Translations under genes and position numbers: made by a program
Assembly: GCF_000015205.1 (NCBI RefSeq)
Contig: NC_008701.1
Coordinates: 1,367,436-1,431,435, forward strand
DNA: 64,000 nt
Reading direction: 5' to 3'
DNA from: Pyrobaculum islandicum DSM 4184
Lineage (GTDB): Archaea > Thermoproteota > Thermoprotei > Thermoproteales > Thermoproteaceae
Notes under the pieces: model-generated
Told to the model about the DNA's origin: nothing
What the model saw: the letters and a program-made list of their open reading frames with translations, nothing else
The model's database searches: none
Shown here: piece after piece, positions 4,002 to 46,592 of the stretch
Layout: each line of letters begins with the position of its first letter
Numbering within the stretch: position 1 is the first letter of the stretch

Positions 4002-4102
4002 AGGTTGGCTGGTGCTCTCCGTACTACTGTGGCAAGTGGTGATGCCAGCAGGGACGGCTCCCCCCTCCTATCATACATTTAAACTTTGGTGTTTTGCGGA
4101 GT

Positions 4103-4921
4103 ATGCAGGCTGTTGTGGCGGCGGCTGGTCTTGGTACGCGTCTTCTGCCGGCTAGTAAGGAGGTGCCTAAGGAGATGTTTCCTGTTTTTGTGTGGGAGGG
4201 GGGTTCTCTGTTGGTTAAGCCTGTGTTGCAGGTGGTTTTTGAGCAGCTTTTTGACGCCGGCGTGAGGGAGTTTTGTTTTGTGGTGGGTAGGGGTAAGAGG
4301 GCTGTGGAGGACTACTTCACGCCCGACTGGGGGCTGGTGGAGTATCTGGAGAGGGCTGGCAAGGCCGAGGCGGCGGGGGCGCTGGCCCGCTTCTACGAGA
4401 GGGTTGAGGCCTCCGCTATTTTCTACGTCAACCAGCCCAAGCCTCTTGGGTTTGGCCACGCCGTCCTTACGGCTGAGCCGTTTATACACGGCGATTTCGT
4501 GGTGGCGGCTGGCGACACGTTCCTCATGGACGGGGCGCCTCTCGCCGCCCTAGTCTCCTCTCCCCCCATGGCCATTATGGTTAAGGAGGTGGAGGACCCG
4601 AGGCAGTATGGGGTGGCCGTGGTGGAGGGGGGGAGGGTCGTGAGAGTGGTGGAGAAGCCTAGGGATCCGCCCTCCCGCCTGGCTATACTCCCCTTCTACA
4701 AGCTCCCCAGCGACTTCTTTAGATATCTTAGGAGGGTTAGGCCGGGGGTCGGTGGAGAGATCCAGCTGACGGACGCAATACAATTGGCTATTGAGGAGGG
4801 GGTCGAGGCTAGGCCGGTCTTCTACGGGGGTGAGTACGTCGACGTGGGCACTCCGCAAACCTATTTAAAAGCCCTCGAGCTGGCTCTACATGTGGCGAGA
4901 AAAAACTCTAGAGTTGATTAA
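4103..4921 (+). CDS. galU: UTP-glucose-1-phosphate uridylyltransferase
   Basis: Makes UDP-glucose from UTP and glucose-1-phosphate in the cytosol. The N-terminus has the nucleotidyltransferase signature AAGLGTRLLPASKEVPKEM. VVAAGDTFLMDG and VEKPRDPPS follow, and GGEIQLTDAI lies near the C-terminus, all standard for GalU. I chose the ATG at 4103 over the TTG at 4094 because a TTTAAA box at 4078-4083 lies about 24 nt upstream, as in leaderless archaeal transcripts. Its product feeds UDP-glucose dehydrogenase encoded two genes downstream. Confidence 0.9.
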   Translation: MQAVVAAAGLGTRLLPASKEVPKEMFPVFVWEGGSLLVKPVLQVVFEQLFDAGVREFCFVVGRGKRAVEDYFTPDWGLVEYLERAGKAEAAGALARFYERVEASAIFYVNQPKPLGFGHAVLTAEPFIHGDFVVAAGDTFLMDGAPLAALVSSPPMAIMVKEVEDPRQYGVAVVEGGRVVRVVEKPRDPPSRLAILPFYKLPSDFFRYLRRVRPGVGGEIQLTDAIQLAIEEGVEARPVFYGGEYVDVGTPQTYLKALELALHVARKNSRVD

Positions 4922-13136: not shown

Positions 13137-13471
13137 GGCGACGTCTATGTACTACGCCACGTCTCAGCTAGAGACTTTGAGACAAAGGGAGCGAGGCGTT
13201 ACAGTCGCTGACTACCGCGAAGACGGCGTCAAGGGCGTCGCCCGGGGCCTACAAATCGTGCAGGCGAGGTTGTCGGCTCTGTGCCACATGCGTGCTCCTG
13301 GGCCAGTCTCCTGGCGCCCGCGTCGGCCGCTCGCCCCTTCCTGGGCCTCGCGCTTGGCTCTTCCGGCTTCCGCGCTAGCCCGGTCCTACAGCGGCTTATA
13401 AAGGCGGCCTCCCGCCTCTTCCTCCTCTTCGCCGGCCACCTCGGCGTTATGTTTATATTTTTGTGTGGGCT
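13137..13471. other. Gap without recognised gene
   Basis: Between the sat-coupled gene and the coiled-coil gene I find no convincing coding sequence. Possible reading frames are Ala/Ser/Pro-rich with no domain pattern. A TATA-like GTTTATATT at about 13449-13458 serves the next gene. Confidence 0.5.
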
Positions 13472-13810
13472 GTGGATACTGTGGCGCAGGAGGCTCTTAG
13501 AATAGCTGTGGATAGGGTGGTGGAGAAGCTTAGGGAGGGCAAAAAGCTCTCCACGGAGGACATCTTCCTCCTATACCTCGGCGCCATAGTAAACGAGCTG
13601 GGGGGGATAAGAGGCGAGATCGCGCGGCTAGAGCAGAGGATAGACCAGATAAGCCAGAGGATTGACGCGCTGGCAGACAGCCTAAGCAGGAGAATTGATG
13701 AGACAAACAAGCGGATTGACGCACTCAGCGCCCGTATAGACGACGTGCAGAAGACTCTGCTGGAGATACAGCGCCTCTTGGTGGAGTTGTTGAAGGCGGG
13801 GCGGGCTTAG
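13472..13810 (+). CDS. Small coiled-coil protein
   Basis: About 112 residues. After a helical, charged N-terminus (ALRIAVDRVVEKLREGKK, LYLGAIVNELGGI), heptad-like repeats dominate: QRIDQISQRIDALADSLSRR, then RIDETNKRIDALSARIDDV. These predict a long parallel coiled coil. GTG 13472 is preferred to GTG 13463 because the GTTTATATT box lies about 20 nt upstream. Similar short coiled-coil proteins are common in Thermoproteales with no known function. Confidence 0.65.
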   Translation: MDTVAQEALRIAVDRVVEKLREGKKLSTEDIFLLYLGAIVNELGGIRGEIARLEQRIDQISQRIDALADSLSRRIDETNKRIDALSARIDDVQKTLLEIQRLLVELLKAGRA

Positions 13811-13935
13811 TCAGAAGTGGGTGGTTTAGATAGGCTAGTCTCGTCCTAGGGCGGGGCTTTCAGTTCCCGACTTGTGCGTGGATGAGGTAGATGGCCGAGC
13901 TCTAAAGTTTTTTAAAAACTGTGTATCTTTTTGTG

Positions 13936-14487
13936 GTGTCCACCGAGTTTTTAGAGAGGCCTCTGCCTAAGCCCACCGGCGAGGGGTACATTACGGCGCG
14001 TCTTCTGGAGGCTCTTGTGGAGACTGGGCTTGCGCTGGAGTTCCTACGGCGCGGTCTTGTGAGGAATGCGGCGGGGAAGGCCTTCCAGGCTTGGAGGGCA
14101 TACATGGCGGCTCTCATGAGGCTAGAGCTCGAGAAGCTCAAGGCCGCCGCCAAGAGCGAAGAGGAGAGGCGCTGGCTGGAGTCCACAGCCGTCCCCCGCC
14201 TCCCCACAACCAAGATGAAAAGACTCTCACAGATGCTTGAAGAGGTGGGGCACGCTGGCGTTTTGCCTTATACGGCTGTAGCCCTCGATCTCCACGACTA
14301 CCAGTACCACGGGCCGGACCCGGACGCCGCCCTCTCAAAATACACGTCTAGGGAGGAGGCGGCGAGAGACGTTGTGGCGCTGTTGCGCGAGCTAGCCAGA
14401 CGTGTGGAGGCTGTGAGGGCGAGGGTGAAGTGGACGGGGGAGCTAGAGAGGGCTTTGGCTGAGGTGAGGGGGGTTCTTGGGGGGTAG
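13936..14487 (+). CDS. PaREP1-family protein
   Basis: Helical protein of about 183 residues. The segment ARLLEALVETGLALEFLRRG, then VRNAAGKAFQAWRAYMAAL, is the hallmark of the PaREP1/PaREP8 family, which is multicopy in Pyrobaculum and related to HEPN-like helical domains. Function is unknown. GTG 13936 (or 13933) fits a TTTTTTAAAA box at 13907-13916. A second, broken member lies just downstream on the other strand. Confidence 0.75.
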   Translation: MSTEFLERPLPKPTGEGYITARLLEALVETGLALEFLRRGLVRNAAGKAFQAWRAYMAALMRLELEKLKAAAKSEEERRWLESTAVPRLPTTKMKRLSQMLEEVGHAGVLPYTAVALDLHDYQYHGPDPDAALSKYTSREEAARDVVALLRELARRVEAVRARVKWTGELERALAEVRGVLGG

Positions 14488-14727
14488 GGCCTTCGGGGGG
14501 TGGCGTTGGGTAGCTCCGGGTGGTTGCGTGTTGGGGTTCTGTAGGGCGGTGGCCTTGTCGTCTCGGTGGCTTCTGTATCTCGGCGGTTGGGGGTCTGGGC
14601 GGCGGTTGCGGTGGCTGAGGGGGGCCTCTGGGGGGCTCCGCCGTTTCTGTAGCTGGGTTTGTTGTTTGTGGCGGCCGCCGCCGGTGGCTGGGGTCTGCCT
14701 TCGGGTGAGGGGCGGGGGTGCCTGGCG
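14488..14727. other. Gap without recognised gene
   Basis: GC-rich stretch, strongly G/T-biased on the plus strand, between two PaREP1 genes pointing at each other. No coding pattern or RNA structure that I can support. Confidence 0.4.
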
Positions 14728-15210
14728 CTACTGCGTCTGGCCGGTCTTGATTCTGGTTTCTACTTCTCTTACCAGCTTCCCCACCTCCTCCATGGCGTCC
14801 TCCACGTGCTCCTTCCTGCACCAGCCCTCGTAGAGGCACGTGTGCATGGCGTTTCCGGCGTTCCACGCGTCGGTGGCACATCTGCCGAGGTCTCTGCGGA
14901 GGACTGTGCCGTATTCCCACAGCTCGCCGTGGCTGGCGAGCCTCCTCCCCTCTCTCTCCACGCCGTGTAGGCCTTCACGGCTAGGGCGGCGGCGCCCCAC
15001 AGCTTCTCAGCGGCCTGTCTCACATCGCCTCTCTCCAGCTCCTCCCTGGCCTGCTCTAGGAGGTTCCTCGCCGCGTTGATGTACTCCTCAGCGCGGGACC
15101 TGGGGTCGAGGCCCTGGGTGAGCAAGTCGACGAGGTACTCCTCAACGCTCATCCCAAGCCTCCTCCCTGACGCGCTCGGCGATGCTGCGCGGGAGGGTCA
15201 GGGCTGACAT
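14728..15210 (-). pseudogene. PaREP1-family gene with two frameshifts
   Basis: Three pieces in different frames line up as one PaREP1 protein. From the ATG at 15210, ALTLPRSIAERVREEA forms an RHH-like N-terminus. A second frame (from 15152) reads MSVEEYLVDLLTQGLDP, EEYINAARNLLEQAREELER and AAEKLWGAAALAVKAYTAW. A third frame ends with RRLASHGELWEYG and CLYEGWCRKEHVEDAMEEV. The breaks are near 15160 (in a GGAGGAGG run) and near 14957 (one extra AG in an AGAGAG run). Two separate indels argue for a real pseudogene. Confidence 0.7.
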
Positions 15211-15504
15211 CAGACTTCCCCACGCTACACATATTAATATCTTTGCAGTTTTCTGAGGGCGATTCGCCGGCTCACGGACAGCGGAGCCCAGGCCCATTAT
15301 AAAGGCTTCGTTCTTTAGGGCGGGGACTACACGGCATCTGTATAGAGAGCATTCCTGCGCTGAGGCGCGGGGCCGGAGGTGAGGAGAATCGGCATATGGC
15401 CTGGCGGCAAGCTCCGGAGGCCGGAGGTTACGCGGCATTCCGGTTGTGAAGGTGGATCCGAGACGCTCCTCCTCTCCAGTGCGAGAAGAAACTAATGAGA
15501 GGCG
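15211..15504. other. Gap without recognised gene
   Basis: About 290 bp between the broken PaREP1 gene and the TnpB relic. One long minus-strand frame crosses it, but its composition is not protein-like. I see no RNA gene. Confidence 0.4.
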
Positions 15505-15665
15505 ATGTGCCTGAGGCACATCTTGTGCCGGCATTGCGGGTGGGAGGGGGTAGAGACGTGGCGAAACATCGAAAGGAGGGCACTCGAGGAGGGCCGCGTG
15601 CCGCCCGGCCCACGTCAGAGGTTTCACAGATGCCAATGAAGGCGCAGGCATAGCGTTAGGCGGCA
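15505..15665 (+). pseudogene. Relic of a TnpB C-terminus
   Basis: Translates as MCLRHILCRHCGWEG, then NIERRALEEGRVPPGP, and in a shifted frame PTSEVSQMPMKAQA. The relic at 18113-18322 encodes the same tail. At the DNA level the two share a run of about 25 identical bases inside the segment encoding EGRVPPGP. The C-x-x-C zinc ribbon followed by N-I-E-R-R-x-L is the end of a TnpB (OrfB) RuvC-III domain. Only the last 50 or so codons survive. I first took it for a 44-residue zinc-finger gene; the match to the second relic makes decay more likely. Confidence 0.6.
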
Positions 15666-15714
15666 AATGGCAGTGGAGAATACATATATAGTGTTGTAGT
15701 GCTATAGCTCCTAT

Positions 15715-17430
15715 GTGGTGTTTTTTAGTTCGGGAGAGCAATTGGGATTGGGTGTGGCTATGAGGGTGTTGATGAGGGATTTGGGCCCGGTGAGGGAGGG
15801 GGAGGTGGAGCTTGGGGATGTCACGTTGTTTATGGGCCCGCCCAACACGGGGAAGAGCTACGCTCTGCGGGCTATCTATGCGAAGTTGTCGCCTCTTGAC
15901 AGATACGCCGCTGGGCGTGTGGAGGGGAGGCTGTCGACTAGGATTGCGGAGTATCTAAAGCGGGGGTTCCGGGCGGAGATGTCGGCAAGCGTCCGCAGGT
16001 TGGTTTCTGGGGTGGTTGAGCTGGTTGCGACTTTGAGGTCGGGTGGACGTGAAGAAGCTCGTACCGTTTTGGGGCGGATGGGCGAGGTGGGTCTTCAAGT
16101 GGCTGAGGCCGGGGGCTCTGTTGTCGTTAGAGGTCCGCCGATGGAGTGGGCGGTGGACGTGGGTGTCTTGAGGAAGATGGCTGCGGACGCGTTTTACGGC
16201 TTTATGGCCGAGCTTGTGCCTGTGAGGGGGGTGGACGCGGTGCGGCTTGAGCCGCTCGAGCCGCTTGATGTTGTGGGTGCGCTGAGGCGCAGTGTTGAGG
16301 CGGAGCGCCGGTATCCGTTGAGGTGGTTTGGGCAGGCAGGTGAAGTACTTAGGAGGTTGGGTTGTGGGGGTGATGAGTTGGAGCGTCTGCTGTTCTCGTC
16401 CTCGGTGAGTCTTCACTTTGATGTTTGGGTGGGTGGGAGGTCGAGTGTATGGCTTGAGTTCCGCATAGATACGCGGGCTTTCTCGCCGGGGGGCGCTGGC
16501 CACGTGGAGAAAACCGATGGGGGTTTGTCCAAGGCGTTGGACAAGTATGTGGAGGAGTTGGTGTCTGAGGTTGTGCACTGGTCGGCTACCTATCTTTCTA
16601 GTGCTGTGGTGGAGGGCGTCCGCGACGCTTTGAGAAGCCGCCTTGGTTTTGAGGGGCTGCGTTTTGTTCCTTTTGGCAGAAGTGTGCTCGTCTTGGCGCT
16701 GGAGAGCGCTTCTAGGGAGCCGTATGCCAGGCCTGTGTACCTGCGTAGGTTTGTTGGGGGGTTCTATCCAAGCGTGTTGGCGAGCTATGTCTACTGGGCG
16801 AGCGAGGGGCGGAGACGTCTGTTGGAGGGGCTCGACGAGGCGGGGGCGAGGGTTCTCGACGCCGCCACGCCTTTGCTAGAGGGCAGGTTGGTGCCGGGCG
16901 CCGCCGGGAACGTGCTATATAGGGACTGGCGGGGGTCGCTTGTCGAGTTTCGACTCTCTTCTGCTCTTGTAGGCGAGGTCTCCGGCCTTCTCTTCCCCCT
17001 GCTGAGCGCGGGCGGTAGATCTCTGGTGCTTGTCGAGGAGCCCGAGGCCCAGTTGCACCCCGGGGCGCAGATAGCGATGGCGCTCTTCTTGGCCTCGCTG
17101 CCGGCTCTATGCGGGTGTAGGGTCGTGGCTACCACACACAGCGACTTGCTGGCCATCACCATGAGCCAGCTGGCGGTGCAGAGGCCGGACAGGCAGTGGG
17201 TTGTGGAGTTGCTGGCGAGGGTTCTGCCCCATGTGAAGGAGGGCGTTGACGTGTTGGCTGGGGCCGTGGCAGAGGCCGCCGTAGACTTGAGGATTTACGA
17301 ATTCACCAGAGAGGGCAAGGTGGCGCCTGTGAGGCCGGAGGACGTGCTCGGCAAGGAGGTGCCTGGGATAAGCAGGGTAATCGACGAGCTCACCGATTGG
17401 GCCTTCCGCCTTGCGAGCCGCCGGGAGTGA
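15715..17430 (+). CDS. AAA/ABC-type ATPase (AAA_15/OLD-like)
   Basis: A 571-residue ATPase. The P-loop GPPNTGKSYALRAIYAKL is near residue 42. A long helical insertion follows, and the C-terminal ABC-like part has LVLVEEPEAQLHPGAQIA (Walker B, D-loop) and VVATTHSDLLAITMSQL (switch His). This is the layout of AAA_15/AAA_21 and OLD-family ATPases, common in phage defence. The GTG at 15715 lies about 25 nt after a TACATATATAG box. A small nuclease-like gene follows 6 nt downstream, so the two form an operon. Substrate and trigger are unknown. Confidence 0.8.
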   Translation: MVFFSSGEQLGLGVAMRVLMRDLGPVREGEVELGDVTLFMGPPNTGKSYALRAIYAKLSPLDRYAAGRVEGRLSTRIAEYLKRGFRAEMSASVRRLVSGVVELVATLRSGGREEARTVLGRMGEVGLQVAEAGGSVVVRGPPMEWAVDVGVLRKMAADAFYGFMAELVPVRGVDAVRLEPLEPLDVVGALRRSVEAERRYPLRWFGQAGEVLRRLGCGGDELERLLFSSSVSLHFDVWVGGRSSVWLEFRIDTRAFSPGGAGHVEKTDGGLSKALDKYVEELVSEVVHWSATYLSSAVVEGVRDALRSRLGFEGLRFVPFGRSVLVLALESASREPYARPVYLRRFVGGFYPSVLASYVYWASEGRRRLLEGLDEAGARVLDAATPLLEGRLVPGAAGNVLYRDWRGSLVEFRLSSALVGEVSGLLFPLLSAGGRSLVLVEEPEAQLHPGAQIAMALFLASLPALCGCRVVATTHSDLLAITMSQLAVQRPDRQWVVELLARVLPHVKEGVDVLAGAVAEAAVDLRIYEFTREGKVAPVRPEDVLGKEVPGISRVIDELTDWAFRLASRRE

Positions 17431-17436
17431 ACAAAT

Positions 17437-17976
17437 ATGCCGGGTCTGCGGCCTGAATGTCTTCAGACGCCCAACGTGGGGAGGCGCTGTTGTATCTGTG
17501 GGGAAAACGAATGCTTTGTGGCGTTGTCGGATAGGGGCTTCACGATTCTGTTTGCCGACGGCGAGGAGGCAGTAGCTGAGGGGCCGCGTTGCGACTGCAT
17601 CGTTGTCCTTAGAAGAGACAACTATGTGGAGATTTACTCAGTTGAGCTCAAAAGAATAGCTGTCGGTGAGAGTAAAGCAGATGACGCGCAGGATCTTGGT
17701 AAGTATAAAGCCGATGATGCGCTGAACCCCGATACGCTTAGGCAGAAGTGCCAGAGATGTCTCAAGTGGGCCGAGGAGGTGGTAAACAAGTTTAACTCGC
17801 CTAGTAGGAGGGGGGTGGAGGTTGTCAAGAACTGCGTAATAGCGATCCCGATGGAGGTATTCCAGAAGGTCGCTACGCTCGTGCGTAGAGAGCGGTTTAG
17901 ATACAAGCCAAGTGGCGCACAGCTACGAATACTATATTGCAACGATTCTATAACCGGCCATGCAGAAGTTCTCTGA
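17437..17976 (+). CDS. PD-(D/E)XK-like nuclease partner of the ATPase
   Basis: A 179-residue protein with an N-terminal CCICGENEC cysteine cluster. A strand carrying CDCIVVLRRDN is followed by EIYSVELKRIAVGES and, later, LRQKCQRCLKWAEEVV. The spacing D, then E-x-K, then a helix with Q-K matches the PD-(D/E)XK nuclease core. The family cannot be named from sequence alone. It starts 6 nt after the ATPase stop. The pair resembles two-gene defence modules in which an ATPase controls a nuclease, which is an inference. Confidence 0.55.
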   Translation: MPGLRPECLQTPNVGRRCCICGENECFVALSDRGFTILFADGEEAVAEGPRCDCIVVLRRDNYVEIYSVELKRIAVGESKADDAQDLGKYKADDALNPDTLRQKCQRCLKWAEEVVNKFNSPSRRGVEVVKNCVIAIPMEVFQKVATLVRRERFRYKPSGAQLRILYCNDSITGHAEVL

Positions 17977-18112
17977 AGTTCAAAACTGGGCGTTCAGATG
18001 GCGCCGGCCCTTGTTGGAGTGCTTAATGGCGTGTCGCCAGCCCGTGAGTCTCAAGCCGTGGCTGAGCGTGCCGTTTGTCCCTAGGCGATCATTATTGACA
18101 GTTCTTGACTAA
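17977..18112. other. Short gap
   Basis: No gene seen. It separates the nuclease-like gene from the second TnpB relic and may include decayed element sequence. Confidence 0.4.
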
Positions 18113-18330
18113 TCACGCTAGGGACTTTCTCCTAGCCCACGCCTTCATGGGTATCCAAGATACCTCGGGCGTGGGGTCATTGGGCATGGGGCCGGGCGGC
18201 ACGCGGCCCTCCTTGAGTACACGCCTTTCGATGTTTACCACCGCGGCAACATCCCTTCCCTACTGCCGCCCGCAGCGTGGACACGGCGGTCGCCAAATCC
18301 GCGTGCGTGTCCCGAGCTGGGGGTGGCGAA
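18113..18330 (-). pseudogene. Relic of a TnpB C-terminus (second copy)
   Basis: On the minus strand the sequence reads QLGTRTRIW, then PCPRCGRQ, a stop codon, and GRDVAAVVNIERRVLKEG, RVPPGPMPNDPTPEVSWIP and MKAWARRKSLA before a stop at 18113-18115. The C-x-x-C pair and R-D-V-A-A-x-x-N-I are the zinc ribbon and RuvC-III motif of TnpB. An internal stop and the missing upstream domains show it is dead. It is inverted with respect to the 15505 relic, and both tails point at the ATPase-nuclease pair. Confidence 0.65.
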
Positions 18331-18373: not shown

Positions 18374-19006
18374 TCATTGCGGTGCTCCTCTACCAGGGGC
18401 GTGGGGGCGGGCCTTCCCTGTGATTAAATAATACACGTGGTTGGTTATATAGACGGCGTGGTCTGACGCTCTTTCAAGTAGTCTGAGGATTACCGTCTCC
18501 ATAACTTTACACCTATCTGCGCCTTTTAGCACCTCCATAAGTGCCTCTTCGTAGCTTTTATCTACTACCTCGTCGTCTAATTTCACTACCTCTTCTAGTT
18601 TTGAAATGTCGCGGTTGAGGAACATATCTACCGCTGTGGTGACCATATGTATAACCACGTTGCCCACCTCTTGGACTTTTTTAGACTGACATCCGCCGCC
18701 GAGTTTTTCAACTACTATAGCTATGTCGTAGGCGTAGCGCGCTATTCTATATAAGTCGTAGGAAATAAAAAGCGCGCTTTTTAAAAAACGTAAGTCTATA
18801 GCCACGGGGTTGTAACGGGCGACTGTCTCCATAACTAGGTCGGAGACTTCGTCATGTATGTTGTGTAATCTAGAGGCGACCTCTCTAATTTTTTCTGCAC
18901 TTACACCTCCTGACAACGCCGTAGATAAAGCCTCTACGGCAAGCTTAGCGCCTTCTCTAAGTCTCTTAGAAATCTCCTCTTCTGCCAGATCTAGAAGTCT
19001 CCGCAT
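18374..19006 (-). CDS. phoU: PhoU-like phosphate regulator
   Basis: A 210-residue all-helical protein with two PhoU repeats. Conserved-type segments include LHNIHDEVSDLVMETVARY, LRFLKSALFISYDLYRIAR and LDDEVVDKSYEEALMEVL. PhoU restrains Pst-mediated phosphate uptake and signals phosphate status. It lies 22 nt after livF on the same strand, far from the pst genes, which begin beyond the liv operon. Function is well supported, the operon partner less so. Confidence 0.85.
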   Translation of the reverse strand: MRRLLDLAEEEISKRLREGAKLAVEALSTALSGGVSAEKIREVASRLHNIHDEVSDLVMETVARYNPVAIDLRFLKSALFISYDLYRIARYAYDIAIVVEKLGGGCQSKKVQEVGNVVIHMVTTAVDMFLNRDISKLEEVVKLDDEVVDKSYEEALMEVLKGADRCKVMETVILRLLERASDHAVYITNHVYYLITGKARPHAPGRGAPQ

Positions 19007-36331: not shown

Positions 36332-36621
36332 GAAACCACCCCATTAAAACATTCCCATATATGTCAGTAAAGGATGTAATATACTTTAGACAAGGGGCTA
36401 GACAGCCAAACGCGAAGAATGGCGCTGGGTTACGCAGTCTCTAAGGCGTGTGTATGATGGTAAAGGCGAAGAATGGCGCACGCCGGAACCCAGACAGGAG
36501 AATGTGTGAATGTAAAGGGGCGTTTGAAAGCGACCCCCGAGGGAACAAAAAACCACGAAAAAACTTAAAAACCCAAAAGATCCATAGACACAAGCCCCAG
36601 AAATCAAAAGATAGTAGAAAC
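36309..36621 (+). repeat. Inverted repeat, left copy: CRISPR leader 1 and first repeat
   Basis: Closely matches the reverse complement of 46568-46880 over about 310 bp. It covers the start of the neighbouring gene, the whole leader (36332-36596) and the first CRISPR repeat. Inside it, GCGAAGAATGGCGC occurs twice, at 36412-36425 and 36466-36479. A TATA-like ACTTAAAAAC lies about 30 nt before the first repeat and should drive array transcription on the plus strand. Confidence 0.85.
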
Positions 36622-36757
36622 CAGAACACGTCTGGGAATATCATGATGTCCTCCAGTTCCCAACCAGAAATCAAAAGATAGTAGAAACTCAAAAAAGACG
36701 TGCTTGTCAGAGTACCCAACTATCCCCCTCCTCCAGAAATCAAAAGATAGTAGAAAC
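36597..36757 (+). CRISPR. CRISPR array 1: three repeats
   Basis: Repeat CCAGAAATCAAAAGATAGTAGAAAC (25 nt; split here as CCAGAAATCAAAAG + ATAGTAGAAAC) at 36597-36621, 36664-36688 and 36733-36757, all identical. Spacers are 42 and 44 nt. The leader is on the low-coordinate side, so transcription is rightward, toward the cas genes. The end GTAGAAAC resembles the 8-nt 5' handle of mature crRNAs. The array is very short, which implies low adaptation activity or recent reset. Confidence 0.95.
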
Positions 36758-46294: not shown

Positions 46295-46592
46295 GTTTCT
46301 ACTATGCTTGATTTCTGAGTGGCAAACCCCCTCCGCTTGCTTGGGCCATATGACAGATCCGGTTTCTACTATCTTTTGATTTCTGGCCGCGATGGCCGGC
46401 TTCGCCCTCCTCCAGGCCTGGAAGGCGAGGTTTCTACTATCTTTTGATTTCTGGAGGGCGTAATCGTCTCTCTCGAACAGATGGCCTTTATGACGTCGTT
46501 TCTACTATCTTTTGATTTCTGACGCGGTCTTCAACGCGGTTCAGTCCGGCCAACTCCCAGCCTTGCTGTTTCTACTATCTTTTGATTTCTGG
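46295..46592 (-). CRISPR. CRISPR array 2: five repeats
   Basis: Repeats, read on the minus strand as in array 1, lie at 46568-46592, 46498-46522, 46430-46454, 46362-46386 and 46295-46319. The 46498 copy has one end change, and the distal 46295 copy has several, as is usual for a terminal repeat. Spacers are 45, 43, 43 and 42 nt. The leader is on the high-coordinate side, so transcription is leftward, toward the cas genes and toward array 1. Confidence 0.95.

Follow-up and report, generated by a model that had tools for sequence, protein, structure and literature searches.

An SMC-like ATPase and a PD-(D/E)XK-like partner as a probable archaeal defence pair amid scattered TnpB relics in Pyrobaculum islandicum

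Results

The window, i.e. the whole stretch of 64,000 nucleotides of Pyrobaculum islandicum DSM 4184 that was analysed, carries an ATPase gene that is followed after 6 nt by an ORF for a 179-aa protein, and the two lie between two relics of the TnpB 3' end (Table 1), an arrangement that the initial annotation had described correctly. The ATPase ORF could also start at GTG 15715, but ATG 15760 is the likelier start since homologues begin at the residue encoded there. Two CRISPR arrays (Rfam CRISPR-DR26) are located 19–30 kb from the pair, at 36597–36757 on the minus and 46362–46592 on the plus strand.

Table 1. Features at and around the gene pair (window positions).
Feature	Position	Strand	Remark
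Left part of shared block	13210..15307	.	Collinear in P. neutrophilum
Coiled-coil ORF	13463..13810	+	Left part of shared block
PaREP1	13921..14487	+	Left part of shared block
PaREP1/HEPN-like ORF	14769..15152	-	Left part of shared block
Segment absent from P. neutrophilum	15308..15859	.	Takes in left relic, promoter region and initial ~33-34 codons of the ATPase with Walker A
Left TnpB 3'-end relic	15505..15665	+	Frame-shifted, 3' hairpin lost
SMC/ABC-type AAA_15 ATPase (OLD/AriA/PtuA-like)	15760..17430	+	556 aa from ATG 15760
179-aa PD-(D/E)XK-like partner	17437..17976	+	Motif E43...C52-D53...E70-L-K72
Right TnpB 3'-end relic	18071..18330	-	In-frame stop in TnpB frame
phoU	18374..19006	-	Start of phoU-ABC transporter flank; outside module

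The ATPase matches Pfam AAA_15 (E=1e-10) and has intact motifs (Walker A GPPNTGKS, Walker B VEEPEAQLHP, TTHSD), and Pfam gave no match to a TOPRIM domain in this protein, which ends at 556 aa. Its predicted fold is a head with a coiled-coil insertion, for which the top structural matches were PtuA of Septu and retrons (Z 18.6); SMC heads and Rad50 (Z 14–16.5) as well as AriA of PARIS (Z 15.4) were also matched. The best PADLOC family was PD-T4-4_A (2e-16), followed by PDC-M47A (2e-15), with the PD-T4-4_A match consisting of two stretches and not covering the full length. PD-T4-4_A was likewise matched by all seven aligned members of the ATPase family (up to 5e-32), and the ATPase of genome G079 matched it with 6e-52. 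In the tree, the window ATPase belongs to an archaeal clade of seven ATPases (support 100/100), from which the bacterial PD-T4-4/M47 clade is separate.

For the 179-aa protein, Pfam returned only a sub-threshold match to PDDEXK_9 (E=0.1). An alignment of the partner family from 11 archaeal loci revealed an invariant CD...(E/D)xK core preceded by an acidic residue, mostly corresponding to E43, which is the arrangement seen in PD-(D/E)XK enzymes. Across archaeal and bacterial partners, the Asp of CD and the (D/E) position are each conserved in 15/15 sequences and the Lys in 14/15, with an Arg in L100. In the model (pLDDT 75, pTM 0.74), D53 immediately precedes a strand, and E70/K72 close the strand that follows. 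Matches of this model in Foldseek and VIA-align were mostly PD-(D/E)XK proteins, among them FokI, BspD6I, PaqCI, Shedu, EndoMS and HamA, each of them weak (Foldseek best E 0.083, Z 5–7) and accompanied by acetyl-CoA carboxylase. PADLOC models, the B-subunit models included, did not match the protein up to E=5, the partner profile found no match among PDB sequences, and neither tblastn against plasmids and phages nor a search of viral contigs yielded a relative. Taken together, the motif, the predicted fold and the evidence from the family argue for a PD-(D/E)XK-like partner. The nuclease fold proposed in the initial annotation is favoured by the motif and by the prevailing class of the matches, and weakened by their low individual scores.

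At 11 or more archaeal loci, the ATPase and its partner recur as a unit, in most cases as a tight tandem. In the tandem loci that were measured, the partner lies directly downstream of the ATPase or overlaps it (gaps of -23 to +20 nt), and the genes are convergent in one genome. The partner was found in 2/11 Pyrobaculum genomes and in 7/81 genomes of the class searched. The small ORF of Thermocladium (L102/G044), which is devoid of the D and the K, was left out of the family. The second Pyrobaculum species with the pair, P. neutrophilum, has it at another locus.

Related archaeal ATPases at five further loci (L009, L010, L021, L022 and L025) are accompanied by small downstream ORFs with a degenerate motif (ADY...EE or EVT), which are possibly inactive or different nuclease-like partners, and at L015, L017 and L020 related ATPases are followed by TOPRIM-like ORFs (IILCEGKHDYEFIKELI). 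Moreover, the gene after NsnB-like ATPases from bacteria and one methanogen (L104–L125) mostly codes for a PIN-like protein (VIDASVARAAG); of these partners, the one that was scanned, from L104, had no match among the PADLOC models.

A closer connection to known systems emerged from other members of the partner family. The partner in G079 gives matches to PD-T4-4_B (3.7e-4) and PDC-M47B (0.006) that span the CD...ELK motif. Through the archaeal ATPase of L103, relatives on bacterial plasmids were found, among them one clear PD-T4-4 (A 3e-260, B 6e-108), and the plasmid-borne partners also carry the CD...(D/E)xK motif. When the profile of the archaeal partners was compared with that of four plasmid-borne ones assigned by PADLOC to PD-T4-4_B/PDC-M47B, the two groups aligned on this motif (E=5.4e-5, probability 67%). 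A scan of 398 Thermoproteota genomes with PD-T4-4_B was uninformative, as it gave no match but left the controls silent too.

In P. neutrophilum, the block is collinear with the left part given in Table 1 and with 15860–18072. It thus begins 2.3 kb outside the left relic, which speaks against a block bounded by the relics. The ATPase of this species (L056, 9886–11499) has suffered a 552-bp deletion with short microhomology that took the left relic, the promoter region and Walker A, and beside it the nuclease ORF is intact; the ATPase is broken in P. neutrophilum and probably also in G032. With regard to the promoter region, a sigma-70 promoter scan is unsuited to archaea.

The phoU-ABC flank on the right is present in nearly all Pyrobaculum genomes and lies ~70 kb from the block in P. 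neutrophilum, where the block adjoins hydantoinase-like genes whose P. islandicum counterparts are found at 120.5–124.4 kb. At this hydantoinase locus of P. islandicum, a PaREP1 fragment is fused in frame to another TnpB relic (L085 ~4052–4355; ~120.05–120.36 kb), and the corresponding site in P. neutrophilum holds a PaREP1 copy beside the nuclease. The fusion makes it plausible that copies of PaREP1 and TnpB took part in a repeat-mediated rearrangement, and the break of homology at the 3' end of the right relic suggests that a repeat-mediated rearrangement might have happened there as well.

Between the two species, the ATPase has a dS of 0.107 and the nuclease one of 0.20, as compared with 0.53 and 0.39 for hydantoinase A and B, 1.31 for a flippase, 3.1 and 1.3 for two ABC genes (ABC1, ABC2) and 0.69 for a permease, with phoU being saturated. 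Elsewhere in the block, values were 0.43 for PaREP1, 0.44 for the coiled-coil ORF and 0.22 for the PaREP1/HEPN-like ORF (67 codons). From the low dS of the pair, as judged against this small comparison set, the pair was probably exchanged more recently than the two species split.

Both relics are degraded TnpB C-termini, and the same peptide terminates two full-length TnpB ORFs of P. islandicum (L036, L039). The 3' ends of both relics face the gene pair, the left on the plus and the right on the minus strand. The relics agree at 44/48 bases (92%), 25 of them in an uninterrupted run, and share a weaker second segment, a similarity far above chance; the inward orientation and the roughly 25 identical bases of the initial annotation are therefore accurate. 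The extent it gave for the left relic was kept, and the right relic is best extended beyond 18113 as far as 18071, the point at which copies with the longer type of 3' end stop. The right relic keeps the full omegaRNA-like 3' stem (GTCCCTAG...CTAGGGAC), followed by ACGG.

With the right relic as query, 37 matches were obtained in P. islandicum (a single contig of 1,826,402 bases), and the genomes of P. neutrophilum and Thermoproteus tenax yielded 15 and 16. For 37 copies placed at random, one would expect 1.93 neighbouring pairs at a distance of up to 2.7 kb; the observed number is 2, and with so many dispersed copies the 2.5 kb between the two relics thus represents chance-level proximity. 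No TnpA ORF was recognised between or beside the relics, both of their reading frames are broken, no left end was found, and there is no tRNA that might mark an integration site between 8000 and 24000.

The right relic and about 36 further copies in P. islandicum make up a dispersed family of TnpB 3' ends. An alignment of 39 relic cores contains two helices in which 94.1% of the cells are paired, as opposed to 35–42% in slid controls, and 29 double-changed cells compared with 12 in shuffles, with 0/500 shuffles reaching the covariation score; this is a result for the family as a whole rather than for the left relic. The terminal hairpins are interchangeable and occur in distinct self-complementary versions (GTCCCTAGGC/GCCTAGGGAC and CCCCGCCC/GGGCGGGG) and is followed by a CGG-type motif and then variable sequence. 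Rfam at the gathering threshold gave no match in the window relics or in 11 other copies. These features are consistent with the TnpB 3' ends being candidate solo omegaRNA scaffolds. Among the loci compared, no solo relic was conserved in position between species and matches were confined to TnpB, from which it follows that the covariation may stem from active elements rather than from a present solo function.

Discussion

From our point of view, the two genes probably constitute one functional unit of a sensor ATPase and a small PD-(D/E)XK nuclease with an antiviral role, a reading for which the computed support comes from the conserved pairing, the ATPase and nuclease motifs, the predicted fold, the patchy distribution and the low dS. 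In such a unit, the SMC-like ATPase would act as sensor and regulator of the nuclease: an oligomer of the ATPase would bind the nuclease and perceive a virus- or plasmid-derived cue, upon which an ATP-driven rearrangement could free or activate the nuclease, and the latter would cut nucleic acid and thereby halt either the invader or the cell. The formation of a complex, the cue, the substrate and the antiviral role are what we infer here from sequences and models. The proposal in the initial annotation of a defence-type ATPase with a regulated nuclease gains from family conservation, motif, fold, PADLOC results, patchiness and low dS and loses from the missing match to the B-subunit models; on balance, a defence role of the pair appears likely.

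Two other functions have to be weighed against this. One could imagine that the ATPase mainly restrains a lethal nuclease and that the module, as a toxin-antitoxin or abortive system, serves its own maintenance, since in PARIS the AriB toxin is sequestered by AriA (PMC11455837) and the window ATPase is AriA-like. As P. neutrophilum retains an intact nuclease ORF next to an ATPase without Walker A, the nuclease is not obviously lethal once the ATPase is impaired. The truncated ATPase may well retain its hold on the partner, but we regard this explanation as unlikely; the same configuration is rather a hint, with the same proviso, at a nuclease whose action depends on the ATPase. A role in housekeeping or genome maintenance, i.e. 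SMC/Rad50-like DNA processing or a function in the cell cycle, is suggested by the likeness of the ATPase head to SMC and Rad50 and by the precedent of Cran1 from Saccharolobus, an archaeal OLD ATPase that acts in the cell cycle and not in defence (PMC12796447). A housekeeping gene would, however, be inherited vertically and conserved, whereas the pair is patchy within both Pyrobaculum and the class, has decayed in P. neutrophilum and has a lower dS than the six other genes, which makes such a role quite unlikely.

As to how the pair came to its place, the initial annotation had envisaged a composite module, moved or trapped as cargo by two TnpB elements. Two related copies do lie on either side of the pair, the block occupies different loci in the two species, and its right homology break coincides with the 3' end of the right relic. 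IS200/IS605 elements have asymmetric ends and move as a unit from left end to right end, so that two right ends cannot bound a mobile unit; the relic termini are of the wrong type, and TnpA and a left end are both missing. Given also that their proximity is at chance level, that both ends are 3' and inward and that the shared block extends past the relics, with its right edge in P. neutrophilum being free of a relic, the composite transposon was rejected and we hold it to be extremely improbable: the flanking 3' ends are independent, scattered debris and not the vehicle of the pair. In a further scenario, the dispersed 3' ends would function as solo omegaRNAs and guide both intact TnpB proteins, and RNA-guided cutting would help to keep or relocate the defence block. 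This scenario could draw on the 'guide' region of the copy beside the pair, 26 nt of which recur without mismatch at the edge of the P. neutrophilum block that has no relic; we consider it very improbable.

To our knowledge, hyperthermophilic archaea are a group in which few defence systems other than CRISPR have been put to the test. The PIN-like partners in bacteria and the TOPRIM-like ORFs in other archaea indicate that one ATPase class is reused with different effectors, in what appears to be one sensor chassis with interchangeable cutters. In addition, thermostable proteins would be well suited to structural work on how such an ATPase turns a nuclease on.

Among the known systems, PARIS (AriA-AriB) shares the ATPase class and the combination of an ATPase with a separate nuclease. 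AriB, however, is a TOPRIM nuclease, whereas motif and predicted fold of the window partner point to PD-(D/E)XK, and AriB was not among the PADLOC matches of the pair. PtuA of Septu and retrons is the nearest solved ATPase fold, but PtuB is an HNH nuclease with a different motif and is likewise missing from the PADLOC matches, and the window locus has no retron. With the OLD family, including Cran1, the window ATPase has the OLD-type ABC ATPase in common; in these proteins a TOPRIM nuclease is fused to the C-terminus of the ATPase, a domain for which Pfam gave no match in the window protein, and Cran1 is vertically inherited and essential in Sulfolobales. The relics resemble IS200/IS605 TnpB elements in their TnpB 3' ends and omegaRNA-like fold and differ from them in being solo 3' ends that lack both TnpA and a left end and have no functional tie to the pair.

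The closest likeness is to PD-T4-4/PDC-M47 of bacterial anti-phage defence. The PD-T4-4 entry combines PF13175 with a PD(D/E)XK nuclease (PMC10952713) and goes back, according to the citation given there, to Vassallo et al. (2022). In common with it, the window pair has adjacent genes for an AAA_15 ATPase and then a small, putative PD-(D/E)XK protein, the motif C-D-x-h...(D/E)-x-K, and PD-T4-4_A as the top match of the ATPase. On the other hand, the sequences are very distant, the archaeal hyperthermophile clade stands apart from the bacterial one, and the archaeal partners have a K in place of Q after the core motif and often start with MPxL and a conserved Cys. Membership is not claimed because the window partner goes undetected by the B-subunit models. 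Nevertheless, as far as sequences and models allow, we favour the view that the pair is a divergent archaeal variant of the two-gene PD-T4-4/PDC-M47 architecture, which, if true, would reach deep into the hyperthermophilic archaea.
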